Positions 5,634 to 61,686 of a stretch of 64,000 nt of DNA are shown piece by piece. This stretch comes from Brachybacterium ginsengisoli. GTDB taxonomy: Bacteria > Actinomycetota > Actinomycetes > Actinomycetales > Dermabacteraceae. How positions within the stretch are numbered: position 1 is the stretch's first letter; every line of letters begins with the position of its first letter. The position numbers and the translations under genes were made by a program. Where the stretch lies: positions 1,240,001 through 1,304,000 of the forward strand of contig NZ_CP023564.1 of assembly GCF_002407065.1 (NCBI RefSeq). The letters run 5' to 3'. The notes below the pieces were generated by a model. The model had not been told where the DNA came from. It ran no database searches and saw nothing but the letters and a program-made list of their open reading frames with translations.

Positions 5634-5718
5634 AGCGGTGTGGACTCCTCGGTAGCGGATCGGGGCCACTCACCGTGGCACAGGTCACTCACCGGGGCAA
5701 GCGGAACGTGCCCGCAGG

Positions 5719-24666: not shown

Positions 24667-24787
24667 GAACCGCTCTCCGCCGCGGCGCCCGCGACCCCGG
24701 GCCCTCGCAGAGCCCGTCCCCGAGCGCCCCGCCGCTCCCGAGCCACAGCCCCACCCCCTCCACCGCACCACCGACGAAGGAGTCACC

Positions 24788-26080: not shown

Positions 26081-26081
26081 T

Positions 26082-27032: not shown

Positions 27033-27850
27033 TGATCGACCGTCGCCGCCCCGTCCTGACCTACGTCGTCCTGACCGTCTTCCTGCTGCTGGTGATCACT
27101 CCCTTCGTGTGGATGATCCTCGGCAGCGTGAAGACCCAGGGGGAGCTGCTGCGGGTGCCCCCGACCTGGCTGCCCGAGGAGCCCACCTGGGACAACTTCC
27201 GAAGGCTCTTCGACCGACCCTTCGGGCGCTACTTCCAGAACTCCGTGGTGGTCGCGGTCGCCGTCACCGCCGGGAACCTCCTGTTCTCCTCGATGTTCGG
27301 CTATGCGCTGGCGCATCTGCGGTTCCCGTTCAAGCGGCTGCTGTTCGTGCTGGTGCTGGGCTGCCTGATGATCCCGGGCCTGGTCACCTTCATCCCGCAG
27401 TACGTGCTGGTGGTGAACCTGGGCCTGGCCAACACCATCCCGGCGCTGATCCTCCCGTTCCTGGTCCAGCCCTTCAGCGTCTTCCTGATGCGCCAGTTCT
27501 TCCTGGGACTGCCCCGGGAGCTGCTGGAGGCCGGGCGGATCGACGGGGTCGGCGAGATCGCGATCTTCTTCCGGGTCTACCTGCCGCTGGCAGGACCGGC
27601 CTTCGCGACCCTCGGCATCCTCACGTTCCTCGGTTCGTGGAACAACTTCCTGTGGCCGCTGGTCGTCTCCTCCAGCGAGGCGACCTACACGCTGCCGGTC
27701 GCGCTCGCCCTGATCTCGACCGGTCAGAACGACACCGACTACGGACTGCTGCTGGCCGGCGCCACCCTCGTGGTCCTGCCGATCCTCGCCGTCTTCCTGT
27801 TCTTCCAGCGCTACTTCATCCAGGGCATCGCCACCAGCGGCATCAAGTGA
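27032..27850 (+). CDS. ABC sugar permease 2 (MalG/UgpE type)
   Basis: 272 residues; the ATG overlaps the upstream stop (TGATG). Six TM helices, start TYVVLTVFLLLVITPFVWMILGSVKTQGEL and the EAA motif ELLEAGRIDGVGEIAIFFRVYLPLAGPA, standard for the second CUT1 permease. A GTG three bases upstream is an alternative start. Partner of the previous permease. Confidence 0.93.
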   Translation: MIDRRRPVLTYVVLTVFLLLVITPFVWMILGSVKTQGELLRVPPTWLPEEPTWDNFRRLFDRPFGRYFQNSVVVAVAVTAGNLLFSSMFGYALAHLRFPFKRLLFVLVLGCLMIPGLVTFIPQYVLVVNLGLANTIPALILPFLVQPFSVFLMRQFFLGLPRELLEAGRIDGVGEIAIFFRVYLPLAGPAFATLGILTFLGSWNNFLWPLVVSSSEATYTLPVALALISTGQNDTDYGLLLAGATLVVLPILAVFLFFQRYFIQGIATSGIK

Positions 27851-27884
27851 TCCCGCCCGTCCCGCACCGCCTCGAGGAGGCATC

Positions 27885-29444: not shown

Positions 29445-31308
29445 CCGCTCCCTGCCCCTCCACCGCAGCGCCCCCGACGGCACCCGCTTCCGGGACCTGA
29501 ACCGCAACGGCGTCATGGATCCCTTCGAGGATCCGCGCCGGAGCCCCGAGGAGCGGGCCGACGACCTGCTGACCCGGCTCTCCCTCGAGGAGAAGGTGGG
29601 GCTCATGTTCCACACCGTCATCGAGACCGGGCCGGAGGGCACGCTGCTCGAGCGTCCCGGGGCGATCTCGAAGTCGGCCACCTCCGAGGTGGTGCTGGGC
29701 AGGCGGATGAACCACTTCAACATCCACGGCCTCGAGAGCGCCGAGACCGCCGCCCGCTGGCACAACCGCCTGCAGGAGCTCGCCGAGCAGACCCCGCACG
29801 GCATCCCCGTCACCGTCTCCACGGACCCCCGCCACGGCGGGGCGCAGAACGCCGGCACCTCCTGGGTGACCTCGTTCTTCTCCCTGTGGCCGGAGCCGCT
29901 GGGCCTCGGAGCGCTCGCGGATCCCGAGCTCGTGGAGGAGTGGGCGGAGACGGTGCGCCGCGAGTACGCCGCCGTCGGCATCCGCGCCGGCCTCCACCCC
30001 GTCGCGGACCTCGCCACCGAGCCGCGCTGGGCGCGCCAGCGCGAGTGCTTCGGCCAGGACCCCGAGCTGGTCGCCGAGCTGGTGCGCGCGGCGCTCGCCG
30101 GGCTGCGCGGACGGGACGGGGAGGCGGCGGTGCAGTCCACCGTGAAGCACTTCCCCGGCGCCGGCCCGCAGAAGGACGGCGAGGACGCCCACTTCCCGTA
30201 CGGGCGGGACCAGATCTACCCGGGAGGGCGGTTCGAGGACCACCTCCTGCCCTTCCGGGTGGCCATCGCCGACGGCGCCGACGCGATCATGCCGTACTAC
30301 GGCCGACCCGTCGGCCTGACGCGGGACGGCGAGGAGATCGAGGCGGTGGGCTTCGGCTTCAACCGCCAGGTGCTCACCGGGCTGCTGCGCGGCGAGCTCG
30401 GCTTCGACGGCGTGATCGTCAGCGACTGGGAGCTCGTGAACGACAACCACGTCGGTGACCAGGTGCTGCCCGCCCGCGCCTGGGGCGTCGAGGAGCTCAC
30501 CCCGGCCGAGCGCATGCGGCGCATCCTCGAAGCCTGGGCGGACCAGTTCGGCGGCGAGGAGTGCACCGAGCTGCTGCTGGACCTGGTGCGCGAGGGCGCG
30601 ATCCCCGAGCAGCGGATCGACGAGTCCGCGCGGCGCCTGCTCCTGGTCAAGTTCCGTCTGGGGCTGTTCGACGACCCGTACGTCGACGAGTCCGCGGCGG
30701 CGGCGGAGGTGGGCACCGAGGTGTCACGCCGCCGCGGCCACGAGGTCCAGGCCCGCAGCGTCGTGGTGCTGCACGACGACGGCGAGGTGCTCCCGCTGCG
30801 CACCTCCGGCGGGCGCCTGCGGATCTACGCCGAGGGCCTGCCCGACGAGGTCGTCACGACGCTGGGGGAGCCGGTCGCCGATCCGGCGGACGCCGACGTC
30901 GCGCTGCTCCGGCTCGGGGCACCCTTCCAGCCGCGCGATGACCTCTTCCTCGAGTCCTGGTTCCACCAGGGCGATCTCGAACCCACGCCCGGGCTCGCGC
31001 ATCGCCTGGCCCGGATCCGCGCGGCCTGCCCGCTGATCGTGGACATCGACCTGGACCGCGCGGCGGTGCTCACCACCATCGCGCCCGTCTGCGATGCGCT
31101 GACCGGCTCCTTCGGCGTCTCCGCAGCGGCCTGGGCCGAGGCGATCACCGGCGTCATACCGCCACAGGGTCGCCTGCCGATCGAGCTGCCGCGCTCGATG
31201 GCGGCGGTGCGCGCCTCGCACGAGGACGTCCCCGGCGGGACGGAGGATCCGCTCTACCCCTGCGGGCACGGTCTCGAGATCGGGCCGGTGCCCGACCACG
31301 AGGGCTGA
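29431..31308 (+). CDS. Glycoside hydrolase family 3 beta-glucosidase-like enzyme
   Basis: 625 residues, starting at GTG 29431 inside the previous gene (14-bp overlap, another frame), so translation is coupled. GH3 features: MDPFEDPRRSPEERADDLLTRLSLEEKVGLM opening, KHFPG at 239-243, and nucleophile Asp332 in VIVSDWEL. The C-terminal alpha/beta-sandwich domain follows (about 410-610). No signal peptide, so it acts in the cytoplasm and probably releases glucose or another sugar from imported oligosaccharides. Last gene of the LacI-controlled cluster. Confidence 0.92.
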   Translation: MPTADRSLPLHRSAPDGTRFRDLNRNGVMDPFEDPRRSPEERADDLLTRLSLEEKVGLMFHTVIETGPEGTLLERPGAISKSATSEVVLGRRMNHFNIHGLESAETAARWHNRLQELAEQTPHGIPVTVSTDPRHGGAQNAGTSWVTSFFSLWPEPLGLGALADPELVEEWAETVRREYAAVGIRAGLHPVADLATEPRWARQRECFGQDPELVAELVRAALAGLRGRDGEAAVQSTVKHFPGAGPQKDGEDAHFPYGRDQIYPGGRFEDHLLPFRVAIADGADAIMPYYGRPVGLTRDGEEIEAVGFGFNRQVLTGLLRGELGFDGVIVSDWELVNDNHVGDQVLPARAWGVEELTPAERMRRILEAWADQFGGEECTELLLDLVREGAIPEQRIDESARRLLLVKFRLGLFDDPYVDESAAAAEVGTEVSRRRGHEVQARSVVVLHDDGEVLPLRTSGGRLRIYAEGLPDEVVTTLGEPVADPADADVALLRLGAPFQPRDDLFLESWFHQGDLEPTPGLAHRLARIRAACPLIVDIDLDRAAVLTTIAPVCDALTGSFGVSAAAWAEAITGVIPPQGRLPIELPRSMAAVRASHEDVPGGTEDPLYPCGHGLEIGPVPDHEG

Positions 31309-49037: not shown

Positions 49038-51632
49038 ATGCCCCGCATTCCCCTGACCTGGCTCGCAGAGCACACCGAGCTGACCGCAGGCGCTTCCGCG
49101 CAGCAGGTCGCCACCGACCTCTCCCGCGTGGGGCTCGAGGAGGAGGCGCTGTTCGGTGCGCAGGTGACCGGCCCGCTGGTCGTCGGCCGCGTGCTGGAGC
49201 TCGTCAAGGAGCCGCAGAAGAACGGCAAGACCATCAACTGGGTGCGCGTGGACGTCGGCCCCGAGCACAACGAGGCGCTGGACAACCCCAAGGATCCCCA
49301 GCCCGGCGAGGAGCGCCCGAGCCGCGGCATCATCTGCGGTGCGCACAACTTCGAGGGCGGCGACCTCGTGGTCGTCTCGCTGCCCGGCACCGTGCTGCCC
49401 GGCGACTTCGCGATCGCGGCCCGGAAGACCTACGGCCACACCTCCGACGGCATGATCTGCTCCGGCGACGAGCTGGGCCTGGGGGAGGACCCCGCCGGCG
49501 AGGACGGCATCATCGTGCTGGGCCGCGGCCACGCCGAGGGCCTGACCGGAGAGCCGGGCGATGACGCGATCGCCCTGCTGGGCCTCGCCGACGAGGTCGT
49601 CGAGATCAACGTGACCCCGGACCGCGGGTACTGCTTCTCGATGCGCGGCGTGGCCCGGGAGTACTCCCATGCGACCGGCGCCGACTACACCGACCCCGTC
49701 TCCACGGTCGAGATCCCGCAGGCCGACGGCGCCGGCGTCGCCGTGCAGCTGCGCGACGAGGCGCCCCTGAACGGGGTGCCCGGCTGCTCCCGCTTCGTGG
49801 CCCTCGAGGTGCGCGGCGTGGACCCCGAGGCGCAGACACCGCGCTGGATGGCGCGCCGCCTGACGCTCGCCGGGATGCGCCCGATCTCGCTGATCGTGGA
49901 CGTCACCAACTACGTCATGCTCGACCTCGGTCAGCCGCTGCACGCCTACGACGCGGACAAGGTGGTGGCCCCGATCGTGGTGCGCCGCGCCCGCGCCGGC
50001 GAGAAGCTCACCACCCTCGATGACGTGACTCGCCCCCTCGACCCCGAGGACCTGCTGATCACCGACACCGACGGCGAGCGCCTGCTGGGCATCGCCGGGG
50101 TGATGGGCGGGGAGTCCACCGAGGTCTCCGCGAGCACCGAGAACATCGTGCTCGAGGCGGCGACCTTCCACCCGATCTCGATCGCCCGCTCCGCACGCCG
50201 CCACCGCCTGCCCTCCGAGGCGTCCAAGCGCTTCGAGCGCGGCGTGGACCCGCAGCTGCCGCTCGTCGCGGCCTACCGTGCGGCGCAGCTGATCGTCGAG
50301 CACGGCGGCGGCGAGATCGCCGCCTCGGTCACCGACGAGGGCTCCGCCCCGGCGCCGGCCGCGGCGATCTCCCTCCCGCTCGGCGCGGCCGAGCGCGTGG
50401 TCGGCATCGCCTACACGGCCGAGCAGGTGCGCGGCAGCCTCGAGAAGATCGGCTGCCTCGTCGAGGACGGCACCGAGGGCACCCTCGCCGTCACCCCGCC
50501 GAGCTGGCGCCCCGACCTCTCCCTGCGCGAGGACCTCATCGAGGAGATCGCCCGCCTGGTCGGTTACGCGACGATCCCCTCGATCCTGCCCACCGCTCCC
50601 GGCGGCCGCGGGCTCACCCGCGCCCAGCGCGCCCGCCGGGCTGCGAACCGCGCGCTCGCCGAGGCGGGCCTGGTCGAGGTCAGCTCCTATCCCTTCGTGG
50701 GCGAGGGCATCTTCGATGCCCTGCGCTACGGCGCGGACGACGCCCGACGCGGCGCGGTGCGCCTGGTGAACCCGCTCGCCGACGACGAGCCCCTCCTGCG
50801 CAGCGCCCTGCTGCAGACCCTGCTGCCCGTCGCCCGGCGCAACCTGGGCCGCGGCGAGGAGGCGGTGGCGATCTTCCAGCTCGGCACCACCTCGCTCTCC
50901 CGCGGCGAGGGCGCCTCCGCGCCTGTGCCCGCTCCGGCGCAGCGCCCCAGCGACGCCGAGCTCGAGGCGATCCTCGACGCGCTGCCGCTGCAGACCCGCA
51001 GCCTCGCCGCCGTGGTCGGCGGCGCCTCCGGACCGGCCTCCTGGCAGGGTGAGGTCGCGCCGTGGGGCTGGGCCGACGCCTTCGAGCTCGCCCGCCGCAC
51101 GGCCGCCGCCGTCGGCGCGCAGGTCGAGGTGCGCCAGGTCGAGCAGGCCCCCTTCCACCCGGGCCGCGCCGGAGAGCTGCGTGTGCTCGGGGCCGACGGG
51201 GAGAGCACGGTCATCGGCCATGCCGGTGAGCTCCACCCGGGCGTGGTCAAGGAGTTCGGGCTCCCGGCCCGCACCAGCGCCCTCGAGCTCGACCTCGAGG
51301 CGCTGATCGCCGCGGCACCGGCCGTGGTCGTCGCCGCACCTGTCCCCACCTACCCGCTGGCCAAGGAGGACTTCGCCTTCGTGGTCGATCAGGATGTCCC
51401 AGCCTCCGCCGTGGAGGCCGCGATCGTGGTGGGCATCGGCGACCTCGCCGAGAGCGTGCACCTGTTCGACGTCTTCACCGGCGAGCAGATCGGCGAGGGG
51501 AAGAAGTCCCTCGCCTTCGCGGTGCGACTGCGCTCGAGCGACGGGACGCTGACCGCCGAGCAGATCGGCGAGGCACGCTCGCGCTGCATCGCCGCCGTCG
51601 ACGCCGCCGTGGGCGGGGTGCTGCGGGCGTGA
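49038..51632 (+). CDS. pheT: Phenylalanine-tRNA ligase beta subunit
   Basis: 864 residues from ATG 49038. tRNA-binding domain near the N-terminus (GVICGAHNF-type segment GIICGAHNFEGGDLVVV), the B3/B4 editing domain (about 220-440), B5 helix-turn-helix region and C-terminal anticodon-binding FDX-ACB domain (YPLAKEDFAFVVDQDVP to LTAEQIGEARSRCIAAVD). Forms an alpha2beta2 tetramer with PheS and clears mischarged Tyr-tRNA. The stop overlaps the next gene by 4 bp. Confidence 0.97.
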   Translation: MPRIPLTWLAEHTELTAGASAQQVATDLSRVGLEEEALFGAQVTGPLVVGRVLELVKEPQKNGKTINWVRVDVGPEHNEALDNPKDPQPGEERPSRGIICGAHNFEGGDLVVVSLPGTVLPGDFAIAARKTYGHTSDGMICSGDELGLGEDPAGEDGIIVLGRGHAEGLTGEPGDDAIALLGLADEVVEINVTPDRGYCFSMRGVAREYSHATGADYTDPVSTVEIPQADGAGVAVQLRDEAPLNGVPGCSRFVALEVRGVDPEAQTPRWMARRLTLAGMRPISLIVDVTNYVMLDLGQPLHAYDADKVVAPIVVRRARAGEKLTTLDDVTRPLDPEDLLITDTDGERLLGIAGVMGGESTEVSASTENIVLEAATFHPISIARSARRHRLPSEASKRFERGVDPQLPLVAAYRAAQLIVEHGGGEIAASVTDEGSAPAPAAAISLPLGAAERVVGIAYTAEQVRGSLEKIGCLVEDGTEGTLAVTPPSWRPDLSLREDLIEEIARLVGYATIPSILPTAPGGRGLTRAQRARRAANRALAEAGLVEVSSYPFVGEGIFDALRYGADDARRGAVRLVNPLADDEPLLRSALLQTLLPVARRNLGRGEEAVAIFQLGTTSLSRGEGASAPVPAPAQRPSDAELEAILDALPLQTRSLAAVVGGASGPASWQGEVAPWGWADAFELARRTAAAVGAQVEVRQVEQAPFHPGRAGELRVLGADGESTVIGHAGELHPGVVKEFGLPARTSALELDLEALIAAAPAVVVAAPVPTYPLAKEDFAFVVDQDVPASAVEAAIVVGIGDLAESVHLFDVFTGEQIGEGKKSLAFAVRLRSSDGTLTAEQIGEARSRCIAAVDAAVGGVLRA

Positions 51633-52129
51633 GCGCTCAGGATCCGGCCGCCCCTCGCCCCGGCCAGCAGGGCCCGGCTCTGCCGAGCCCCGCCGCAGCT
51701 CTGCCTGCTCCGGTCCGCAACGGCACCGTGGCCTGGGCTCTCGGCTTCCTCGCCTACATCCCGGTCCCGTTCCTGGGACTGATCGTCGCCGGGGTCGTCC
51801 AGCTGGTCGTCGGCCTCGGCCAGCGCAAGCACGGCGGCCTCGCCGCGGTCAATGGCGTGCGCGCGGCGAACTGGGGCCTCACCCAGCTGTGCTGGCCCGT
51901 CCTGATGGTGATCACGATCGTCCTCGGGGTGGCCACCGGGAGCCCGGGGGAGAGCGGCGGAGTGCACCTCACGCCCGTCATGAGGGGGGTCACGACGACC
52001 CTGTTCGGTCTGTTCTTCCTGGTGTGCGTGCTGGAGGCGATCTACGCGATCGTCGGCACCGTGCTCGCGTCCAAGGGGCGCCGGGTGTGGCTGCCCGTCA
52101 TCCCCTTCCTGCGCACGCCCCGTTCCTGA
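51629..52129 (+). CDS. DUF4870 family membrane protein
   Basis: 166 residues from GTG 51629, overlapping pheT by 4 bp. A Pro/Ala-rich N-terminus (about 30 residues), then WALGFLAYIPVPFLGLIVAGVVQLVVG, VNGVRAANWGLTQLCWPVLMVITIVLGV and a third helix LFGLFFLVCVLEAIYAIVG. The NGVRAANWGLTQ segment matches DUF4870 (Tic20-like) proteins. Function unknown. Translation is coupled to pheT and, 4 bp on, to the GH20 gene. Confidence 0.83.
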   Translation: MSAQDPAAPRPGQQGPALPSPAAALPAPVRNGTVAWALGFLAYIPVPFLGLIVAGVVQLVVGLGQRKHGGLAAVNGVRAANWGLTQLCWPVLMVITIVLGVATGSPGESGGVHLTPVMRGVTTTLFGLFFLVCVLEAIYAIVGTVLASKGRRVWLPVIPFLRTPRS

Positions 52130-52133
52130 GCCG

Positions 52134-53210
52134 ATGCCGGCACCGAGCAGGCTGACCACCGCCCGATACGTGGGGCTGAGCCTGGATACGGGCCGCAAGG
52201 CCTTCAGCCCGACCACGGTCGTCGACCTGCTCCACCGGATGGGGGCGCTGGGCTTCACTGCTCTGCACCTGCACCTCACCGAGACCCACCGGGTGGGCGT
52301 GCAGCTGCCGGGCTTCGAGGAGCTCGCCGCAGAGGACGCCTGGAACAGCGATGACGTCGCCCGGATCGTCGAGGCGGCCGACGCCTCCGGGATCGCACTG
52401 ATCCCGGAGGTCGACCTCCCCTCCCACGCCGCCGCCCTGCTGGTGGGCCGCGAGCACCTGCGATTGAGGGATCGCCACGGAACGATGCTCGAGGACCGGC
52501 TGGACATCTCCCGTCCGGAGTCGCTGCAGTTCGCCCTCGACCTGCTCGGGGCCGCTTCGGATCTGTTCCCGGGCGAGTCGATCCACCTCGGGGGCGACGA
52601 GTTCTTCGCCGCCCCGTGGGAGGACGAGGATGCGCAGCATCCCGAGCGCTTCCCGACCCTCGTCGACCACGCCCGCACCGCGCTCGGCCCGGAGGCCACG
52701 GCGCTGGACTCGTATGCGCTGTTCGTCAATGCGCTCGCCGAGCGGGCGCGGGAGCTGGGCCGGATCCCGATGCTCTGGAACGACCACGTGGTCCCGGCCG
52801 CTCAGCACCCGCTGGCGCCGATCAGCACCGACGTCGTTCTGGACGTGTGGATCCGGTGGCGCGAGTGGACCCCGTCGGTCACCGACTACCTCGACAGCGG
52901 GTACCGGGTCGTGAACTCGAACGGGGACCTGCTGTACTTCGTGCTCTCGGGGGACGGCCTGCCCGAGCCGCACGGCCGGCGACGCTTCGGCCTTCTCGAG
53001 GACACCTTCGCTCCGCGCCGCTTCATGGGCCTCGCCGCGCAGGACGTCCACCTCGACGTCCCGCCCGTGGCGGAGGGGGAGCCGGACCCCGTGCTCGGCG
53101 CCTCGATGTCGGTGTGGTGCGATGCGCCGGAGGTCCTCGGCGAGACGGAGACGCTCGCCCTGCTGGACACCTGGCTGGTGCCGTTCGCGCGGGTGATGCG
53201 GGCGGGCTGA
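52134..53210 (+). CDS. Glycoside hydrolase family 20 beta-N-acetylhexosaminidase (cytoplasmic)
   Basis: 358 residues. A single GH20 catalytic barrel without the usual N-terminal domain and without a signal peptide. Asp155-Glu156 in HLGGDEFF is the catalytic pair (substrate-assisted mechanism); LHLHLTETHRVGVQLPGFEEL, ALIPEVDLPSHAAALL and PMLWNDHVV also fit. It should remove terminal N-acetylhexosamine from imported oligosaccharides. It is 4 bp after the DUF4870 gene with no ribosome site of its own, so it probably rides on the pheST transcript, and it stands at the left border of the N-glycan island. Confidence 0.87.
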   Translation: MPAPSRLTTARYVGLSLDTGRKAFSPTTVVDLLHRMGALGFTALHLHLTETHRVGVQLPGFEELAAEDAWNSDDVARIVEAADASGIALIPEVDLPSHAAALLVGREHLRLRDRHGTMLEDRLDISRPESLQFALDLLGAASDLFPGESIHLGGDEFFAAPWEDEDAQHPERFPTLVDHARTALGPEATALDSYALFVNALAERARELGRIPMLWNDHVVPAAQHPLAPISTDVVLDVWIRWREWTPSVTDYLDSGYRVVNSNGDLLYFVLSGDGLPEPHGRRRFGLLEDTFAPRRFMGLAAQDVHLDVPPVAEGEPDPVLGASMSVWCDAPEVLGETETLALLDTWLVPFARVMRAG

Positions 53211-53281
53211 GGGGCGGCTGCACGGCCGATCGTGCCCGCTGCTCCGCGGTCAGCGCAGGTCCTCCTGGGCGCTGAGGAGCC

Positions 53282-53310
53282 TTGTGCTTACGCGCTTAAG
53301 TGTCTACCGT
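53282..53310 (+). promoter_or_regulatory. Promoter of the EndoH-like gene (TTGTGC-17-TACCGT)
   Basis: -35 TTGTGC at 53282-53287 and -10 TACCGT at 53305-53310, 17 nt apart. The spacer holds a LacI-type operator, the same arrangement as at 23458-23486. Confidence 0.6.
53287..53300. promoter_or_regulatory. LacI-type operator in front of the EndoH-like gene
   Basis: CTTACGCGCTTAAG, a 14-bp palindrome with one mismatched pair. Its complement CTTAAGCGCGTAAG shares TTAAGCGC with the site at 60511-60526. Confidence 0.65.
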
Positions 53311-53379
53311 GATCAGCGTCGGCCCACTGCAGCGCCGACCGGTCGTGCAGAGCGGCCGACGACGTCCTGGAGGACACTC

Positions 53380-54288
53380 ATGACACACATCTCGCGACGT
53401 TCGGTGCTCACAGGACTGGGCGTGCTCGCCGCCTCCGGGTCGGCGTCCGCCGGCCTGGCGGGCCCCGCGAGCGCCGCCCCGGAACGCCTGCTGGACCGCA
53501 TCGCCTCGGTCGCCTACATCGAGGTGAACACCAACTCCCTGCTCAACGCGGGCCGCTACACCCTCGATGACGGCAGCCCCGCGTTCGACATCGCCGTCAT
53601 CTTCGCGGCGAACATCAACTACGACGGCACGAACGCCTACCTGTCCCTGAACGAGAACGTCCAGCGCGTCCTCGACGAGGCGGACACCTGCATCCGACCG
53701 CTCCAGGAGAAGGGGATCAAGGTCGTCCTCTCGGTCCTCGGGAACCATCAGGGCGCCGGGTTCGCGAACTTCCCGACCCCGAAGGCGGCTGACGCCTTCG
53801 CCCAGCAGGTGGCGCAGGTCGTGTGCCGGTACGGACTCGACGGCGTCGACCTCGATGACGAGTGGGCGGAGTACGGGGCGAACGGGACCAGCCAGCCCAA
53901 CGACTTCTCCTTCGTCGCACTGGTCGGCTCGCTGCGCAAGCGGCTGCCCAACCGCCTGCTCACCTTCTACGTGATCGGCCCGTCGGCGGAGCGCCTGGAG
54001 CACGAGGGGACGCGCGTCGGTGACCTGATCGACTACGCGTGGAACCCCTACTACGGCGCCTACAACGAATACGACGTCCCCGGCCTTCCCCGTTCGCAGT
54101 ACGGGGCGGCGGCGTTCGACCTCAGCTCGGCATCGACCTCCCCTGAGCAGGTGCGCGAGTACGCGGAGCGCACGGTCCAGGACGGGTTCGGTGCCTTCGT
54201 CACGTACCAGCTCCCCGAGGAGGACACCTCGGAGCTCGTCTCGGCCTTCACCGAGCCGCTGTACGGGAGCCCCGCGAGCTTCGCCTGA
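53380..54288 (+). CDS. Secreted GH18 endo-beta-N-acetylglucosaminidase, EndoH-like
   Basis: 302 residues from ATG 53380 with GGAGGA upstream. Tat-type signal (ISRRSVLTGLG) with a cleavage region ending near SAAP (33). GH18 barrel: catalytic motif DxxDxDxE is D154, D157, D159, E161 in YGLDGVDLDDEWAEYG, almost as in Streptomyces EndoH, followed by SFVALVGSLRKRLPNRLLTFYVIG and DYAWNPYYG. EndoH cuts between the two core GlcNAc units of high-mannose and hybrid N-glycans. Acts outside the cell. A LacI-type operator lies in its promoter. Confidence 0.9.
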   Translation: MTHISRRSVLTGLGVLAASGSASAGLAGPASAAPERLLDRIASVAYIEVNTNSLLNAGRYTLDDGSPAFDIAVIFAANINYDGTNAYLSLNENVQRVLDEADTCIRPLQEKGIKVVLSVLGNHQGAGFANFPTPKAADAFAQQVAQVVCRYGLDGVDLDDEWAEYGANGTSQPNDFSFVALVGSLRKRLPNRLLTFYVIGPSAERLEHEGTRVGDLIDYAWNPYYGAYNEYDVPGLPRSQYGAAAFDLSSASTSPEQVREYAERTVQDGFGAFVTYQLPEEDTSELVSAFTEPLYGSPASFA

Positions 54289-54314
54289 CCGGCTGGAGGT
54301 CCTGCCCCGAGACA

Positions 54315-54353
54315 CACATCGCCCGCCCGTGGAGATCACGGGCGGGCGATGTG
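54315..54353. terminator. Bidirectional terminator, 16-bp perfect stem
   Basis: 54315-54330 pairs with 54338-54353 around a 7-nt loop, between the convergent EndoH-like gene and importer operon. Confidence 0.85.
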
Positions 54354-54364
54354 CGTCGGCGGCC

Positions 54365-54389
54365 GCCTTCCGGGAACCTCCCGGAAGGC
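54365..54389. terminator. Second hairpin, 10-bp perfect stem
   Basis: 54365-54374 pairs with 54380-54389, loop AACCT, 11 bp beyond the stop of the binding-protein gene on the minus strand. Confidence 0.75.
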
Positions 54390-54400
54390 AGTCGGCGGCC

Positions 54401-56158
54401 TCAGGCCTTGGTGGGGCTGAGATCCCGCAGGGTCTGGACGACGTTGTTGTAGCCGTCGACCCTCGGGAAGTAGTCGATCTCGCTCGCCTGCTTGATCCCC
54501 GACCACTTCATGGTCGTGAACATGCCGCCGGCGCCGTTGGACTGCACCGGGATGTAGGGGGCGTCATCGGAGACCGCCTGCTGCAGGACCTGGCAGTGCT
54601 CGACGATCTGATCGACCTGGTCCGGAGGGGTCTGCGTGATCGCCGTGATGGCCTCGTTCGCGGCGTCGGGCATCTCCCAGCGGCCGTAGTTCCCGTCGGC
54701 CAGCTCGTCGCCGATCTTGTAGATCTTCGTGTGCATGTACATCGTGAACGCCTGGAACGCACCACCTGCGGCGTTCGTGGTCCACAGCGACAGCTCGTAG
54801 TCGCCCTTCGCCTGCGCCGGGCCGAAGACGTCGGCGGGGAGCGGAGTGAACTCGACCTTCAGCCCGAGGTTCGTCGACCACTGGTCCACCACGATCGGCA
54901 TGGTCGTCATCTCGACGGGGTTGTCGTTCTGGATGTAGAGCTTGAGCGGGAACTCCTTGCCGTCCTTCTCGAGGTTCCCGGCGTCGTTGACGCTCCACCC
55001 GGCGTCTGCGAGCAGCTTCTTGGCGCCCTCGACATCCGCGGTCATGGGCTTGCTGAACTCCTCCTTCAGCATGCTCTCGTAGATCCCGGTGTCGAGGCCC
55101 GTGACGGACGGGACGGTGTAGGCGATGCCCGCCGCCTGCGCGACGATGCTCATGTCCGCGCCCGCCCGCAGCGCCTTGCGGACCGCGACATCCTTCGTCG
55201 GGCCCTTGTGCGTGGCCATGATGATGCCGCGGGTCGAGCCGTCGGGGTAGTAGAAGTACCCGTTGTGGTCCTCCATCCCGACGAAGTTGTCGACCACGCC
55301 GGGGGCGCCGCCCTGCGACCAGTCCACATCACCCTTGGTGATCTGGGATTCGATGTTGCCGGCAGTGCCCGCGGGGACGATGTGGACGGCCTTGAGCTCG
55401 GAGCTCACCTCGCCCCAGTAGTCCTCGCGGATCTCGATCTCGATCTGCTGGCCCGAGAACTTCGTGAGCCGGCCCGGACCGGTGCCGACGGGCGCCTTGT
55501 CCTGGTAGCTCTGCCGATCCAGATCCTTGTAGATGTGCTCGGGATAGATCGGGAAGTACAGCGACAGCGGCAGGTCCTCGGTGTACTGCGGCTCGTTGTA
55601 GGTGACGACCACGGTGTGCTCGTCCGGCGTCTCGATGGCCTTCGCGAGCCAGGGGAGGTTCCCGTCCTCGTCGGGCTCCGTCCCGGGCTCCTCGAAGATG
55701 AAGCCGTACGTGTAGGCCACGTCCTTCGACGTGAACTTCTCGCCGTCGTTCCAGGTCACGTCGTCGCGAAGGGTGTAGGTGCAGACCTTGCCCTCCTCGG
55801 TGTACTCGAAGCTCTTTCCGAGGTTCGGCACCAGGGCCGAGCCGTCCGTCGAGGAGATGCGGAACAGGGTCTCCCAGAACAGGGCGTTGCCGGGCGCCGA
55901 GTCACCGCCGCCGAACACGTTGAAGTTCTCGGGGAAGACGTTCGAGGTCGCGATCGTCGCGCCGATGCGCAGGATCCCGTCGTTGTCGATCGTTCCGGCC
56001 GTCGAACGGGCGCCGCTGCCCCCGTCCTCGGTCGCGCCGCTGGGGCTGCCGCCCCCGGTGCTGCCTCCGCAGGCCGCCAGGGCGGTCGCGGACAGGGCCG
56101 CGGCCCCCAGGCCGAGAGCCGATCGCCGGGAGAACGTGGTGGTCAGGCGTGATGTCAT
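54401..56158 (-). CDS. ABC importer solute-binding lipoprotein, SBP family 5 (Opp/Dpp type)
   Basis: 585 residues from ATG 56158 with AAGGAG upstream. Signal with twin Arg (FSRRSALGLG) and lipobox ALAACGG, Cys30. Family 5 features: LFWETLFRISSTDGSALVPNLGKSFEYTEEG, YTLRDDVTWNDGEKFTSKDVAYTY, VGTGPGRLTKFSGQQIEIEIREDYWG and DVAVRKALRAGADMSIV. Family members bind peptides, but several bind oligosaccharides. Last gene of a five-gene leftward operon; the neighbours argue for N-glycan oligosaccharides as ligand, which is inference. Confidence 0.92.
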   Translation of the reverse strand: MTSRLTTTFSRRSALGLGAAALSATALAACGGSTGGGSPSGATEDGGSGARSTAGTIDNDGILRIGATIATSNVFPENFNVFGGGDSAPGNALFWETLFRISSTDGSALVPNLGKSFEYTEEGKVCTYTLRDDVTWNDGEKFTSKDVAYTYGFIFEEPGTEPDEDGNLPWLAKAIETPDEHTVVVTYNEPQYTEDLPLSLYFPIYPEHIYKDLDRQSYQDKAPVGTGPGRLTKFSGQQIEIEIREDYWGEVSSELKAVHIVPAGTAGNIESQITKGDVDWSQGGAPGVVDNFVGMEDHNGYFYYPDGSTRGIIMATHKGPTKDVAVRKALRAGADMSIVAQAAGIAYTVPSVTGLDTGIYESMLKEEFSKPMTADVEGAKKLLADAGWSVNDAGNLEKDGKEFPLKLYIQNDNPVEMTTMPIVVDQWSTNLGLKVEFTPLPADVFGPAQAKGDYELSLWTTNAAGGAFQAFTMYMHTKIYKIGDELADGNYGRWEMPDAANEAITAITQTPPDQVDQIVEHCQVLQQAVSDDAPYIPVQSNGAGGMFTTMKWSGIKQASEIDYFPRVDGYNNVVQTLRDLSPTKA

Positions 56159-56205
56159 GGAACTACTCCTTCTTCGCAGTATCCGGATGATCCCCGAGGT
56201 CGGGG

Positions 56206-57282
56206 TCACCTCTGCCGCACGTACTCCGCGGCGTTCTCCGCCTGCCAGCACTGCACCGTGTGGTCGTCCTCGGTGCTGCGGAACAGGGGAAGGTCTTCGG
56301 TGGTGCAGCGCGGGGTCGCGACCGGGCACCGGTCGGCGAAACGGCAGCCGCGGAGCTCCTTCGTGGTGTCGACCGGCCGGGCATCGGGGATCGCCTCGTG
56401 GACCGGCGCCCCGGATCCCTTGAACCGGGCGGGATCGGGTGCCGCGCTGAGCAGCAGCTGGGTGTAGGGATGGACCGGGGCGGAGACGATCCGCTCGGTG
56501 GGTCCTGACTCGACGACCTTGCCGCCGTACATCACGTGGATGCGATCGGAGAGGTAGCGAGCGCTCGCGATGTCGTGGGTGATGTAGAGGACGGCCACGT
56601 CCTCTGACTCCCTGAGGTCGCTCAGAAGGTTCAGCACATCGAGGCGGATGGAGGCGTCGAGCATCGAGGTCGGCTCGTCGGCGAGGAGCACGTCGGGGTC
56701 GACGGCGAGGGTCCGTGCGATGGCGACGCGCTGACGCTGACCGCCGGAGAGGTCCGTGGGATAGCGGTCGAGATAGCGCTCCGGAGGAGTCAGGTTCACC
56801 TTCTGCAGCAGCTCGGCGGTGCGCTCCTGCGTCCGCTTCCGTCCGAGGCGCGGGTAATGGATCTTCACGACACGGGAGATGATCGTGCGGATCTTCTTCA
56901 GGCCGTTCAACGAGGCGAACGGGTCCTGATAGATGAGCTGGACGTTGCGGTAGTAGGCCCGCTCTGCCCGGCCGCCCCGGACCTTCACCGGCTCCCCCTT
57001 GAAGCGGATCTCCCCGGAGGTCGGCGAGTGGATCAGGGCGAACAGCCGCGCGATCGTCGTCTTGCCGGATCCGGACTCGCCGACGAGGGCGCAGATCTGG
57101 CCCGCGTGGAGGCTCAGGTCGACGCCGTCCAGGGCACGGATCGTGACGGGGCGGCCGGCGCTGTCGGTCCCCGGGAAATGGACGTGCACGTCGCGGGCCT
57201 CGAGGACCGGGGTGCCGCGGTCCGTCTCAGGAACGATGGCTTCGGCGAGGTCCGACTGCGCTGAGGGAGGAACCATGGTCAT
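56206..57282 (-). CDS. ABC importer ATP-binding protein (OppF/DppF type)
   Basis: 358 residues from ATG 57282, overlapping the previous ATPase gene by 4 bp. Walker A GESGSGKTT, signature LSGGQRQRVAIARTLA, Walker B VLLADEPTS, H-loop ITHDIA. The C-terminal oligopeptide-transporter extension PYTQLLLSAAPDP plus a Cys pattern GCRFADRCPVATPRC fits OppD/OppF (a likely iron-sulfur site in this family). Powers import with its partner ATPase. Confidence 0.94.
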   Translation of the reverse strand: MTMVPPSAQSDLAEAIVPETDRGTPVLEARDVHVHFPGTDSAGRPVTIRALDGVDLSLHAGQICALVGESGSGKTTIARLFALIHSPTSGEIRFKGEPVKVRGGRAERAYYRNVQLIYQDPFASLNGLKKIRTIISRVVKIHYPRLGRKRTQERTAELLQKVNLTPPERYLDRYPTDLSGGQRQRVAIARTLAVDPDVLLADEPTSMLDASIRLDVLNLLSDLRESEDVAVLYITHDIASARYLSDRIHVMYGGKVVESGPTERIVSAPVHPYTQLLLSAAPDPARFKGSGAPVHEAIPDARPVDTTKELRGCRFADRCPVATPRCTTEDLPLFRSTEDDHTVQCWQAENAAEYVRQR

Positions 57283-58400
57283 GACCGATCCTCTCGGTGC
57301 TGCTCGGGAGCGGCGTCGCGCGCCGCCAGCTGCTGGGCGAGCTCCTCGTCGCTGAGCTCGCCGTTGGTCAGGAAGCACGCGCTGCGGCCCGGGTCGATGT
57401 CCCGCAGCTGCGGGATGCGCTGATGGCACAGCGGCATCGCGTCCCCGCAGCGCGTGGAGAAGGCACAGCCGGCGGGGAGGGCCAGGAGATCTGGCGGGGA
57501 GCCGGGGATGCCGCTGAGCCGGCGGACCGGCTCCGACAGGGGCGGGAACGCACGGCGCAGGGCTCGGGTGTAGGGGTGCTTGGCGCTGCTGTGCAGGCGT
57601 GCGGCGGTCCCCACCTCGACCACCTTCCCGCCGTACATGATCGCGATGCGGTCCGAGATCTCCAGCAGCAGCGAGAGATCGTGGGTCACGAAGACGACCG
57701 CGAAGCCGAGGCGCTCCTGGGCGGCGAGCACCTGGTCGAGGATCTGTCGCTGCATGACGACGTCCACCGCCGTGGTGGGCTCGTCCATGAGGACGAGGTC
57801 CGGGTCGCAGGCGAGGGAGAGGGCGATCAGGGCGCGCTGCTGCATCCCTCCCGAGAGCTGGAACGGGAACGCGGTGAGCCGGTCCGCGCTGATCCCCACC
57901 ATGGTGAGGAGCTCCTCGGCCTGGGCGCGGGCCGCCGCCTCGGAGACCTCCGGAGCATGCGTGCGGATGACGTCGGTGAACTGCTCGCCGAGGCGGATGA
58001 CGGGATTCAGGCTCGCCATCGCCGACTGCATGACCACAGAGATCCTCGTCCACCGGTACGGGGCGAGCTCGCGCTCGTCGAGGGTGGCGATGTCGACGGG
58101 GTCGGAGCCGTCGGTGGGATGGAACCAGATCTCGCCGGCGCTGGTGGCGGCGGGCATGCGCTGCAGCCGGCCCAGGGCGTTGAGCAGCGTCGACTTGCCG
58201 CTCGCGGACTCCCCGGCCACGCCGAGGATCTCGCCCCGCTTGAGCGTGAGGTCGACGTCGTCGCAGGCGCGGATGTTCCCGGACTCGGTCACGTAGTCGA
58301 CGCACAGACCGCGGACGTCCAGGAGGGTCCGGGAACGCTCCAGCCGCTCGAGGATCTCCGTCTCGGTCTCGTGGTGCTGGGGAGCGGAGGTGAGGGTCAT
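57279..58400 (-). CDS. ABC importer ATP-binding protein (OppD/DppD type)
   Basis: 373 residues from ATG 58400, overlapping the permease stop (ATGA). Walker A GESASGKST, Q-loop VMQSAMASLNPVIRL, signature LSGGMQQRALIALSLA, Walker B LVLMDEPTTAVD, H-loop VTHDLS. The C-terminal extension PYTRALRRAFPPL and GCAFSTRCGDAMPLC are typical of OppD. Forms a heterodimeric motor with the following gene product. Confidence 0.94.
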   Translation of the reverse strand: MTLTSAPQHHETETEILERLERSRTLLDVRGLCVDYVTESGNIRACDDVDLTLKRGEILGVAGESASGKSTLLNALGRLQRMPAATSAGEIWFHPTDGSDPVDIATLDERELAPYRWTRISVVMQSAMASLNPVIRLGEQFTDVIRTHAPEVSEAAARAQAEELLTMVGISADRLTAFPFQLSGGMQQRALIALSLACDPDLVLMDEPTTAVDVVMQRQILDQVLAAQERLGFAVVFVTHDLSLLLEISDRIAIMYGGKVVEVGTAARLHSSAKHPYTRALRRAFPPLSEPVRRLSGIPGSPPDLLALPAGCAFSTRCGDAMPLCHQRIPQLRDIDPGRSACFLTNGELSDEELAQQLAARDAAPEQHREDRS

Positions 58401-59317
58401 GACGAGACAAGCTCCTTCTGACGGGACGCACGTGCCGTGTCGCGGAGGAAGATCCGCATCAGCTTCATGCGCCTGCTGGACAGCGTGGGGTTGGTGATCT
58501 CGTCCAGGCCGAAGTTGACCATCGTGGTGGCGAAGCCGATCAGGCACAGGGCGAGGCCCGGCGGGACGAACCACCACCACAGGCCGCGGAACAGGGCGTT
58601 CTGGGTCATCGCCCAGTTGATCATCAGCCCCCAGGAGGGCTCCGAGGGGTTGCCGATGCCCAGGAACGCAAGGGCCGCCTGCTGGTTGACCCCTGCGGCG
58701 ATGAGCCCGAGGAACATCGGAGAAATGACCCCGAGGAGGTGGGGCATCACCTCGACGAGGATGATGCGTGCCCGGGACTCCCCGACGGTCCGCAGCGCGG
58801 TGGTGAAGTCCCGCCCGCGCAGGCTCATCGTCTGTGCCCGGATCTGGCGCGCACCGCCTGCCCACTCGATGCCGCCGATCACGATCGAGACGAGCAGCCA
58901 GTTGGCGTTCTGGAACGCGGCGGCCACGATGAAGAGCAGCGCGAAGGTGGGGAAGTTGCCGAACACCAGGATCACGCCGTTGAGGAACCGGTCGACGAAT
59001 CCCCCGGAGAACCCTGCCCAGGCGCCGATGACGACGGTCAGGAAGGTGCCGATCACCGCTGAGGTGAACCCGACCAGCATCGAGGTGCGGGTCCCGTGGA
59101 GCATCCAGGACAGCACGTCCTGCCCCTGGCTGGTCGTGCCGAGCCAGTGCCCGGGACCGGGCGGGCTCCCGTTGAGGTGGAGGTAGTCGACCTGCTGGGG
59201 CGTGGTGCCCAGCACGGTGGTGCTGAACCACGGGCCGAAGATCGCCATGAGGGTGAAGACCGCGATGATCGCGAGTCCCACCTGGACCTTGCCGATGAGG
59301 AGGAACCTCTTCACCAT
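58397..59317 (-). CDS. ABC importer permease (DppC/OppC type)
   Basis: 306 residues. Six TM helices; N-terminal VKRFLLIGKVQVGLAIIAVFTLMAIFGPWF, HWLGTTSQGQDVLSWMLHGTRTSMLVGF, and the EAA loop ALRTVGESRARIILVEVMPHLLGVISP. LGTTSQGQDVLS corresponds to the usual LGTDxxGRDVLS motif. Starts 1 bp after the upstream permease stop. Confidence 0.94.
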   Translation of the reverse strand: MVKRFLLIGKVQVGLAIIAVFTLMAIFGPWFSTTVLGTTPQQVDYLHLNGSPPGPGHWLGTTSQGQDVLSWMLHGTRTSMLVGFTSAVIGTFLTVVIGAWAGFSGGFVDRFLNGVILVFGNFPTFALLFIVAAAFQNANWLLVSIVIGGIEWAGGARQIRAQTMSLRGRDFTTALRTVGESRARIILVEVMPHLLGVISPMFLGLIAAGVNQQAALAFLGIGNPSEPSWGLMINWAMTQNALFRGLWWWFVPPGLALCLIGFATTMVNFGLDEITNPTLSSRRMKLMRIFLRDTARASRQKELVSS

Positions 59318-59318
59318 G

Positions 59319-60440
59319 TCACCTCACCTCCCGGGTGCGGGGGTCGAGGAGCACGTAGACGGAGTCCGCGATGAAGTTGAACAGGAGCGAGGCGAAGATG
59401 ACCATCAGCATCACGCCCTGCATGACCGGGAAGTCGCGAGCCGCCTGGGCGCCGGTCAGGAGCGAGCCGATGCCGGGGTAGATGAACACCGTCTCCGCGA
59501 GGATCACCGCGGTGAGTGCGCCGCCCATGCTCTGGGCGAGACCCGTGAAGTTCGGCAGGAGCGCGTTGCGCGCGGCGTACCGGCTCCGGATGCGGTTCTC
59601 GGGCAGTCCCTTGGCCCGGGCGAGCTGGACGTAGTCCTCGTTGACGGTCGTGATCATCATGTTCCGCATCGAGAAGAGCCAGCGGGCGAAGCCCACGATC
59701 ACGAGGGTGAAGAACGGCAGCACGCTGTGATAGAGCGCGGAGAGGTAGAAGTCGGCGCTCGTGAGATCGATCGGGAGCGAGTTGTCGTACGCGCCCTGGT
59801 TCGGGAACCACCCGTTCATGTAGGCGAAGTACCAGACGATGAGGAGCCCGAGCCAGAACGCCGGGATCGAGCTGAAGAACATCGACAGCGGAGTGAGCAT
59901 CGCATCGAGCCGCCGTCCGGGGCGCCAGCCCAGCCGGGCGCCGAGGTAGGTGCCGATGATCCATCCCAGGACGGTCGAGACGATCGCGAGGTACAGGGTC
60001 CACGGGAGCGCTCGAGCGATGAGCTCGTTCACGGAGATCGGGTAGTACTGGGCCGACTGCCCGAGATCGCCGTGGGCGAGCTGGGTGATGTAGTCCCAGA
60101 ACTGCAGGACCAGCGGCCGATCGGGGTCTCCGTAGCGGGCCTTGATCATCTGGATCTGGTAGCCCGACGGGGGAGCGCCGGTCTTGTTGGTGATCTCCCG
60201 GATCATCTGCGTGGCCGGATCGCCGGGCATGAAGCGCGGGAGGGCGAAGTTCAGGATCACGCTGGCCACGGCGACCGTGAGGTACAGGGCGAGCCGCTGT
60301 CGGAGGTAGACGAACCCGGCGAGCCTGCTGGACCGTGAGCGTCCGCGCTCTCGGCGGTCCTCGACGGCCGGTGAGTCGGATGCCGGCCGTGCAGGGTCGT
60401 CGGCCAGAGCCACCGGATCGATCGGTGCGGGTTCGGACAT
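59319..60440 (-). CDS. ABC importer permease (DppB/OppB type)
   Basis: 373 residues from ATG 60440, preceded by AAGGTGG. A 45-residue hydrophilic N-terminus comes before TM1. LRQRLALYLTVAVASVILNFALPRFMPGDP is the standard DppB start; the EAA loop is ARAKGLPENRIRSRYAARNALLPNFTGLA. First gene of the importer operon. Its promoter region is shared with the divergent EndoS-like gene and contains a LacI-type operator overlapping a TAAAGT -10 hexamer. Confidence 0.94.
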   Translation of the reverse strand: MSEPAPIDPVALADDPARPASDSPAVEDRRERGRSRSSRLAGFVYLRQRLALYLTVAVASVILNFALPRFMPGDPATQMIREITNKTGAPPSGYQIQMIKARYGDPDRPLVLQFWDYITQLAHGDLGQSAQYYPISVNELIARALPWTLYLAIVSTVLGWIIGTYLGARLGWRPGRRLDAMLTPLSMFFSSIPAFWLGLLIVWYFAYMNGWFPNQGAYDNSLPIDLTSADFYLSALYHSVLPFFTLVIVGFARWLFSMRNMMITTVNEDYVQLARAKGLPENRIRSRYAARNALLPNFTGLAQSMGGALTAVILAETVFIYPGIGSLLTGAQAARDFPVMQGVMLMVIFASLLFNFIADSVYVLLDPRTREVR

Positions 60441-60510
60441 GATCACCACCTTGTGAACCGTGACGCGCTCGTGCCTCCGAGCGATCGTTGTGAATCGGTT
60501 GTCGTACGCC

Positions 60511-60526
60511 ACTTTAGCGCTTAACT
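60511..60526. promoter_or_regulatory. LacI-type operator in the divergent importer/EndoS-like promoter
   Basis: ACTTTAGCGCTTAACT; its complement AGTTAAGCGCTAAAGT matches the EndoH-gene operator over TTAAGCGC and the following AAG. On the minus strand it overlaps TAAAGT (60511-60516), a likely -10 of the importer operon. It can act on both divergent genes. Confidence 0.65.
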
Positions 60527-60657
60527 TGGACTCATCGCGCAACGTTACACCGACGTGACGGAGCCTCTCTGCATCGGGGAGGGCGCGATGTCCGTTCCGC
60601 CCAGAGGGGGAACGGTCGCGAGCGGGCGCTCGGCCCGTCGCGGAGAGAGGGCTGGAC

Positions 60658-61686
60658 ATGTCACGCACGACCGGTCGACGTTCACTGATCGCAGGCGGCC
60701 TCGCGGCTGCTGCCCTGAGCACTTCCGCCGCGGCCTCGGCCGCACCGCCTGCGCACTCGCAGGGGTCGGGGGCGGGATCCGGTGTCCAGGAGCAGGGCAG
60801 GATGCCGAACCATGCCCAGGCTCCCGGCAGCCCTCAGGTGTCGCTGGAGGAGATGGCACCTCCTCTCGAGTTCGCCTACTTCCGGACCTGGCATGACCGC
60901 GCGGTCGATCCCTCGCGCCCCAACTCGATCGGCGAGGTGCCCGCGGAGATCGACGTGCTGTTCGTCTTCCCCGACTACACGCCGGAGGACAGCCCGTTCT
61001 GGGACACGCTCCGGGACGAGTACGTCCCGACCCTGCATGCACGGGGGACCCGGGTGGTGCGCACGACGGACATCCGCGCCGTCCTGGACCCCCAGTTCCC
61101 GGACACCGCCGACGGGCATCGGGCCAACGCCGAGCACCTGGTCGAGACCCTCGTCGAGCAGCATGGTCTGGACGGCCTGGACATCGACATGGAGCGCACC
61201 CTCACCGAGGCCGAGAACGCGCGAGCGGTCGGGGTCTTCCGGGAGCTGTCCCGGCTGATCGGCCCGCTGAGCGGGACCGGGCGGCTCTTCATCTACGACA
61301 CCAACCGGGACGGCGACGTGCCGCTCCTCGGCGCGGTCGCCGACGGCATCGACTACGTGCTGGTGCAGTCCTATGGACGCTCCCCCTCCAGCCTCCAGGC
61401 GACCTGGGACACCTTCGCGCCGCACATCGATCCCGAGCAGTACCTGATCGGATTCTCGTTCTACGAGGAGAACGACGACTGGAACGAATGGAACGACACC
61501 TCCGAGCCGTTCGAGGAGTCACGAGCGGTCGCCTTCGCCGACTGGCAGCCGGCCGGGGCGAGCAAGGGCGGCGTCTTCTCCTACGCCGTCGACCGCGACG
61601 GTGTCGCCTTCAAGGACGACACCATCAGCCATACGACCTATGGCTGGAGCATCAGGCTCAAGGAGCGCATGCTCGACCGGATCTGA
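60658..61686 (+). CDS. Secreted GH18 endoglycosidase resembling the EndoS catalytic domain
   Basis: 342 residues. Tat-type signal (GRRSLIAGGLAAAAL) and a Gly/Ser/Gln linker to about 60. The GH18 domain has EFAYFRTWHDRAVDP, EVPAEIDVLFVFPDYTPEDSPFW, the motif D172, D175, D177, E179 in GLDGLDIDMER, YLIGFSFYEEND and KGGVFSYAVDRDGVAF. Remembered EndoS shows closely similar stretches in the same order (YFRTWHDRAS, EVPKEVDILFVFHD, DGLDIDIE, FMIGFSFFEE, AGIFSYAIDRDGVAH). EndoS cuts complex N-glycans of IgG. This protein lacks the EndoS leucine-rich, Ig and carbohydrate-binding domains, like the small EndoF2-type enzymes. Confidence 0.87.
   Translation: MSRTTGRRSLIAGGLAAAALSTSAAASAAPPAHSQGSGAGSGVQEQGRMPNHAQAPGSPQVSLEEMAPPLEFAYFRTWHDRAVDPSRPNSIGEVPAEIDVLFVFPDYTPEDSPFWDTLRDEYVPTLHARGTRVVRTTDIRAVLDPQFPDTADGHRANAEHLVETLVEQHGLDGLDIDMERTLTEAENARAVGVFRELSRLIGPLSGTGRLFIYDTNRDGDVPLLGAVADGIDYVLVQSYGRSPSSLQATWDTFAPHIDPEQYLIGFSFYEENDDWNEWNDTSEPFEESRAVAFADWQPAGASKGGVFSYAVDRDGVAFKDDTISHTTYGWSIRLKERMLDRI

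Follow-up and report, generated by a model that had tools for sequence, protein, structure and literature searches.

A likely N-glycan catabolic regulon with a peptide-type importer in Brachybacterium ginsengisoli

Introduction

How does a bacterium take up the N-glycans that its own exported enzymes would release, and what holds the genes for such a pathway together? The question is raised by a stretch of 64,000 nt (termed the window here, with positions counted from its first letter) that covers positions 1,240,001-1,304,000 of the single-contig 3.95 Mb genome of Brachybacterium ginsengisoli. Between pheT and argC it encodes two exported glycoside hydrolases of family GH18, an ATP-binding cassette (ABC) importer of the Opp/Dpp type and a GH20 protein. 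To our knowledge, importers for released N-glycans have been described from few bacteria. A preliminary description, made from the letters of this DNA, had read these genes as a self-contained locus for harvesting N-glycans. We confirmed the gene set by families and motifs, and the shared purpose in N-glycan use is well supported by an operator regulon, conserved neighbourhoods and co-occurrence. The locus is not self-contained, since genes for GH38, GH125 and GH5_18 mannosidases and for a LacI protein are located at other places of the chromosome. With good confidence, we think that these data are best read as a regulon for N-glycan catabolism that has its own importer of the peptide type.

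Two Secreted Endoglycosidases of Different Type

In the interval that starts with pheT and a DUF4870-like gene and ends with argC, the genes for the GH20 protein and an EndoH-like GH18 protein are located on the plus strand, followed by the five importer genes on the minus strand and, across a divergent promoter, by the gene for an EndoS-like GH18 protein on the plus strand. All of these genes are intact by family match and motif. The catalytic motifs reported earlier for the three enzymes are complete, with DGVDLDDE and DGLDIDME corresponding to the GH18 motif DxxDxDxE and HLGGDE present in the GH20 protein.

The EndoH-like protein (53380-54288, plus strand, 302 aa) scores 368.6 bits with the NCBIfam equivalog model NF045482 (Endoglyc_H, cut-off 300) and 39.6 bits with PF00704 (cut-off 29.6), and its best solved relative is EndoH itself (1edt, E 1e-93). 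The DGVDLDDE motif is found at residue 154. The start at 53380 is an ATG with a ribosome-binding site, and a longer open reading frame begins at 53284. As a member of the EndoH family the enzyme is expected to act on high-mannose N-glycans.

The second protein (60658-61686, plus strand, 342 aa) matches the EndoS TIM barrel PF23916 with 317.6 bits (cut-off 27) and carries DGLDIDME at residue 172. Its nearest solved relative is 6kpl (E 1e-76), followed by EndoS2, EndoS and CP40; 6e58 matched with E 2e-56. We take 6kpl to be Endo-CoM, a fungal enzyme specific for core fucose. The barrel is the sole domain matched, and the extra domains of EndoS proper are not present. The earlier label "EndoS-like" thus holds for the catalytic domain but not for the rest of the protein, which is better described as a single-domain GH18 enzyme of the EndoS/Endo-CoM type. 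It is expected to act on complex N-glycans, perhaps on core-fucosylated ones. Twin-arginine (Tat-type) signals were seen by eye at the N-termini of both endoglycosidases and of the binding protein of the importer, in agreement with the description of two secreted GH18 enzymes of different type.

The similarity of the catalytic domain to EndoS, EndoS2 and CP40 could also mean that the second enzyme mainly disarms host antibodies and that nutrition is secondary. We regard this as highly improbable, because the catalytic domain stands alone, is closer to 6kpl than to EndoS, and is encoded by a gene that shares its operator with the catabolic regulon.

A LacI-Type Operator Joins the Locus to Distant Mannosidase Genes

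The B. ginsengisoli genome contains one match each for GH38 (at 2.57 Mb), GH125 (at 0.49 Mb) and GH5_18 (at 1.88 Mb), so that the endoglycosidases, the importer and all three mannosidase families are present in the same genome. The GH5_18 protein matches nine solved GH5_18 sequences with E values of 3e-146 to 3e-112, among them 6gvb, the Cutibacterium acnes enzyme that was shown to cleave Man-GlcNAc (PMC6160142). A lacI gene (chromosome positions 1883098-1884219) is divergently oriented to the GH5_18 gene and encodes a LacI helix-turn-helix protein (PF00356, 51.1 bits).

A palindrome near ACTTAAnCGnTTAAGT is common to the promoter regions of the importer and EndoH genes of relatives. An initial consensus for the operator was derived by visual inspection of promoter regions, those of the window among them. 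It guided the choice of 16 sites, all from other genomes, on which a matrix was trained. Within the window this matrix gave scores of 25.9 at 60511-60526, in the divergent promoter region of the importer and the EndoS-like gene, and of 21.5 at 53286-53301, approximately 79 bp upstream of the EndoH start. The next best score in the window was 7.4, showing that the operators mentioned in the preliminary description are real; both are also found by the whole-genome patterns described below. Elsewhere in the genome a site with a score of 21.1 lies between GH5_18 and lacI and one with 16.0 about 90 bp before GH38, and no further site of at least 10 was present in the 115 kb of B. ginsengisoli DNA scanned. 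The top score in 40 Markov-shuffled control windows was 13.3.

A strict pattern allowing one mismatch was searched over the whole 3.95 Mb and found four places, namely EndoH, importer/EndoS, lacI/GH5_18 and GH38; the reversed-pattern control found none. Since the pattern was chosen in the knowledge that these four sites pass, what informs is the lack of any further occurrence in the 3.95 Mb. An earlier whole-genome pattern had found three of the same four places. The GH125 locus and the GH20 gene are without an operator. The genome has the parts of a LacI-family regulon, a LacI protein and four palindromic operators at its candidate target genes, and the repressor encoded beside GH5_18 probably switches EndoH, the importer, the EndoS-type gene, lacI/GH5_18 and GH38 through this one operator.

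Relatives also carry operator sites at their importer and EndoH promoters and, in addition, before several GH5_18/GH38/CUT1 clusters. All seven lacI/GH5_18 divergons fetched (the one from B. ginsengisoli included) have a site between both genes, with scores from 11.3 to 23.9. The LacI proteins of 15 out of 17 loci inspected share the recognition region AVS-x-A-[LV]-NGR; the other two loci gave no match to the expression.

The Importer Belongs to the Peptide Family, and Its Binding Protein Resembles Sugar Binders

The five importer genes, all on the minus strand, encode a solute-binding lipoprotein of family 5 (54401-56158), ATPases of the OppF/DppF type (56206-57282) and the OppD/DppD type (57279-58400), and permeases of the OppC/DppC type (58397-59317) and the OppB/DppB type (59319-60464 with a GTG start or to 60440 with an ATG). 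The binding protein contains a LAAC lipobox and matches SBP_bac_5 (PF00496) with 183 bits (cut-off 32.4). Both ATPases match ABC_tran and oligo_HPY; their best NCBIfam models are dipeptide/oligopeptide ATPases, with scores below the model cut-offs. Both permeases match BPD_transp_1 (138 bits for the OppB/DppB-type protein), and the OppC/DppC-type protein also matches OppC_N. This is the composition of the Opp/Dpp (peptide/nickel) family, and a full importer of this type had been named correctly from the start.

The nearest solved relatives of the binding protein bind chitooligosaccharides and mannooligosaccharides. In a Foldseek search with its model the first 14 matches were all chitooligosaccharide- and mannoside-binding proteins, and peptide binders ranked lower. 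A sugar importer of the peptide family is therefore not in itself new. The earlier remark that a peptide-type N-glycan importer would be unusual loses weight through these sugar precedents (Vibrio chitooligosaccharides, Thermotoga mannosides) and stands in so far as one dedicated to N-glycans was not found in the open-access literature searched.

Since the closest binding proteins include those for chitooligosaccharides from Vibrio, and GH18, GH20 and such an importer fit chitin use, the locus might serve chitin instead: the GH18 proteins would be chitinases, the importer would carry (GlcNAc)n and the GH20 enzyme would cleave it, as in Vibrio. This is very unlikely. The EndoH-like protein passes the cut-off of NF045482, the second enzyme has an EndoS TIM barrel, and the operators join the endoglycosidases to mannosidases, which chitin does not need. 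A gene for a GH85 protein, of a family with known endoglycosidases, adjoins the importer in one relative (see below). Finally, Trp363 and Asp365 of the Vibrio protein VhCBP are required for tight (GlcNAc)2 binding (PMC8449061). These residues align with Asn and Val in the B. ginsengisoli protein, a weak point at about 21% identity.

Conservation of the System in Relatives

The search for mannosidases covered 47 genomes of the family, B. ginsengisoli included; gene tables of relatives were made with a simple codon-composition script and by reading of the proteins, not with a gene finder. An EndoS-type gene was found in 12 of the 47 genomes and a near relative of the importer in 12, with either present in 13. 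Both occur together in 11 genomes, each alone in one, and neither in 34 (Fisher p 8e-9, not corrected for kinship). "Near" excludes the importer of G030, which has 34% identity (13 genomes at the threshold), and a second copy of the same kind in G037. The EndoS-type gene adjoins ten of the 12 near importers (interrupted in G016), EndoH adjoins that of G001 and neither that of G044. Among 396 genomes of the order (two draws, taken as the same), ten have both genes, seven only the EndoS-type gene, two only the importer and 377 neither.

One or both kinds of endoglycosidase are present in 17 of the 47 genomes. GH5_18 was found in 15 of these 17 versus nine of the 30 others (p 2e-4), and the corresponding values for GH38 and GH125 are p 0.012 and p 0.053, all without correction for kinship. 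GH5_18 is missing from two of these 17, namely G029, which is 74% complete, and G011, in which the EndoS-type gene is fragmented and no importer, GH38 or GH125 match was found. In the other five importer-less endoglycosidase genomes (G009, G021, G023, G038 and G041) GH5_18 and GH38 are linked, as read from match coordinates, and adjoin CUT1 relatives (loci L070, L071 and L172-L174). Five genomes have both the CUT1 and the peptide-type importer (G001, G003, G008, G018 and G372), so that the two are not simply alternatives. One GH38 query, taken from L077, was out of frame, and its matches do not enter these results.

In G018 the interval from pheT to the importer contains a GH85 gene (PF03644, 111.7 bits) but no gene for EndoH or GH20. 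GH85 is unrelated to GH18, and we interpret this as a non-homologous swap of endoglycosidases.

In genomes of other families, the importer is 35-70% identical over its parts. It adjoins GH5_18, GH38 and GH125 in Arthrobacter silviterrae and is found with lacI, GH5_18 and GH38 in a metagenome-assembled genome of the Microbacteriaceae. Two Tessaracoccus species have it near GH20, and Haematomicrobium sanguinis has it together with an EndoS-type enzyme. In two genomes of family f19 an EndoS-type gene (two frames in one) lies near GH5_18, GH20 and, by reading, CUT1 and lacI genes. Tandem EndoS-type genes occur in two genomes of family f4 (L044 and L045). In the first of these (L044, 3852-16690) GH20, GH38 and, by reading, CUT1 genes adjoin the pair, the first EndoS-type protein has no evident signal peptide, and operator-like sites score 26.3 and 20.7.

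A second EndoS-type paralogue with 52-55% identity is encoded elsewhere in G008, G001 and G037 (L025 9395-10336, L026 951-1892 and L027 9594-10616), with operator-like sites of 14.5-19.7 near its start. Decay of the system was also seen: transposase-like genes (by reading) interrupt the EndoS-type gene of G016, EndoS-type fragments remain without an importer in G011, and G009 retains a remnant of the binding protein beside EndoH (L029 8148-11456, L028 9822-10441 and L079 7868-8281).

GH20 and Further Features of the Window

The GH20 hexosaminidase-like protein (52134-53210, plus strand, 358 aa) matches PF00728 with 97.9 bits (cut-off 22.3). A signal peptide was not seen by eye, and the protein is likely cytoplasmic. 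Its AlphaFold model (5 sequences, pLDDT 81.9) comes closest to lacto-N-biosidases and to the GH20 domains of StrH, with identities of 17-24%. The gene starts 4 bp after the DUF4870-like gene. That a GH20 enzyme is present and likely cytoplasmic agrees with the preliminary description; that it starts the trimming inside the cell is the weakest step, given the missing operator, the 4-bp gap and its absence from the loci of several relatives. The enzyme may remove terminal hexosamines inside the cell.

The gene upstream (51629-52129) encodes a small membrane protein whose DUF4870 match is weak and below the cut-off; such a protein is also present in the loci of some relatives (L017, L019 and L021). 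An inverted repeat with perfect 17-bp arms and a 5-base loop (54315-54353) lies between the convergent EndoH and binding-protein genes. It is probably a two-way terminator, although it lacks a T tail and was not picked up by a T-tail scan.

A second sugar cluster is present at 23587-31308. It comprises lacI, a binding protein of the CUT1 type with two permeases (by reading), a GH3 enzyme and a glucoamylase-like protein (PF10091), and the substrate of the cluster is perhaps a beta-glucan. An exported protein of the GHL10 family (PF02638) encoded at 4068-5669 is unrelated to the N-glycan locus.

Discussion

Families, intact catalytic motifs, operators, conserved neighbourhoods and co-occurrence are direct observations on the sequences. 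From these we infer the specificities of the enzymes, the ligand of the binding protein, the operator binding of the LacI named here and the order of the steps. By cleavage between the two GlcNAc residues of the core, the two exported endo-beta-N-acetylglucosaminidases would release high-mannose and complex N-glycans from glycoproteins. The freed oligosaccharide, with Man-beta-1,4-GlcNAc at its end, would be captured by the family-5 binding protein, which is anchored to lipid, and carried inside by the ABC importer of the peptide type. There the GH38 and GH125 alpha-mannosidases would trim it, and the GH5_18 beta-mannosidase would then cleave Man-GlcNAc to mannose and GlcNAc. Among accounts that make use of the co-regulated parts, such a chain of release, import, trimming and cleavage is the simplest.

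Several observations weigh against this interpretation. A CUT1-type binding protein (PF01547, 101.7 bits; L068 14598-16953) is encoded 4.8 kb from the GH125 gene of B. ginsengisoli; a permease lies alongside, other genes separate the pair from GH125 and there is no operator nearby. Sites of at least 9 were absent from four of the seven GH38-only loci fetched (L076 and L184-L186) and from four of five GH125 loci, the one of B. ginsengisoli included. CUT1 importers belong to the regulon in some relatives that also own the peptide-type importer. The GH20 gene lacks an upstream operator and is absent from several relatives' loci. Across the 47 genomes, the importer shows a weak association with GH5_18 (p 0.017) and no significant one with GH38 (p 0.17) or GH125 (p 0.3). 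G044 has the importer (L050 10114-19545, beside a CshA-type adhesin with CshA repeats) and no EndoS-type, EndoH, GH5_18, GH38 or GH125 match. Distant relatives of the importer (32-58% identity) adjoin GH35 instead (PF01301, more than 360 bits; L052 1614-8998 and L053 4999-12924), which suggests that the wider importer branch carries glycans. As a control, 1.24 Mb of DNA was scanned from 67 loci that surround genes for distant family-5 binding proteins and are mostly of actinobacterial origin. Here 26 sites scored at least 12; nine sites near other importers scored at least 15, five of them at least 20. Such a motif is therefore common to LacI proteins in general, and what gives it weight is which genes it marks. 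The CUT1 genes near GH125 and the operators missing at the GH38 genes of several relatives slightly lower our confidence in an N-glycan regulon with its own peptide-type importer.

The same CUT1 genes bear on a further alternative, in which N-glycan release is real, but the importer takes up leftover peptides or glycopeptides and the glycans enter through a CUT1 importer. The importer is of an oligopeptide family, relatives keep a CUT1 importer with GH5_18/GH38, a CUT1-type binding protein is found near the GH125 gene, and in G001 and G008 a gene for a C69-family peptidase (PF03577) lies near the EndoS-type paralogue. Nevertheless, we judge peptide uptake to be unlikely: among solved structures the nearest binding proteins are those for sugars, with those for peptides ranking lower, and the importer sits with mannosidases in A. 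silviterrae and the Microbacteriaceae genome. A CUT1 relative was not seen at the GH38 and GH5_18 loci of B. ginsengisoli (L067 and L069), the rest of the genome not having been searched for CUT1, and the strict pattern found no fifth operator in this genome.

An N-glycan regulon with a dedicated importer also allows a broader proposal, which we rate as moderately likely. An actinobacterial lineage of Opp/Dpp-type importers would have turned into a dedicated N-glycan importer, beside or instead of CUT1, with interchangeable endoglycosidases (EndoS-type, EndoH and GH85) and a LacI control of scattered mannosidases that is conserved across at least three families. If this is true, a second importer family would explain how N-glycans are taken up where endoglycosidases and mannosidases are encoded without an adjoining CUT1 importer, and the operator is a cheap marker by which the pathway can be found even if its genes are dispersed. 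The genus includes Brachybacterium alimentarium and B. tyrofermentans, which are species of the cheese rind; glycoproteins of yeast and milk would be a likely food source there.

Comparison with Known Systems

The open-access literature searched contained no such Brachybacterium system, no peptide-type N-glycan importer and no such LacI regulon. The chitooligosaccharide (CBP) and mannoside importers of Vibrio and Thermotoga are similar in that a peptide-family importer works with an oligosaccharide-binding family-5 protein; they differ in taking (GlcNAc)n or mannosides as ligands instead of released N-glycans. The N-glycan importers of Streptococcus pneumoniae and Bifidobacterium longum are of the CUT1 type, both unlike that of Brachybacterium, and the pneumococcal endoglycosidase is a GH85 enzyme. 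The breakdown of N-glycans by S. pneumoniae and their uptake through an ABC importer are covered by PMC5215778. The high-mannose system of B. longum is alike in having an endoglycosidase outside and GH38 and GH125 mannosidases inside the cell (PMC10154615). The cluster L044 from family f4, with CUT1 genes by reading, is comparable to that of B. longum. Endo-CoM and ORF1188 of Sphingobacterium are likewise small GH18 endoglycosidases, and their specificity for fucose-containing glycans, shown in PMC5762919, is a guess for the protein encoded at 60658-61686.

The closest parallel in content is the N-glycan locus 1 of C. acnes, which combines GH38, GH5_18, GH20 and GH18 with sugar ABC importer genes and a regulator; the core is broken down in the cytoplasm, as proposed here, and the GH38/GH5_18 pair is also named in Dermabacter vaginalis (PMC6160142). 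According to the same source, the C. acnes genes form one locus and the GH18 protein has no secretion signal. In Brachybacterium, in contrast, the endoglycosidases are exported and the mannosidase genes are unlinked, most of them being tied in by the operator. The Brachybacterium importer belongs to the peptide type; the cited passages give no importer type for C. acnes. The parts and the catabolic chain are thus already known from C. acnes and B. longum, whereas the wiring and the type of importer look new.

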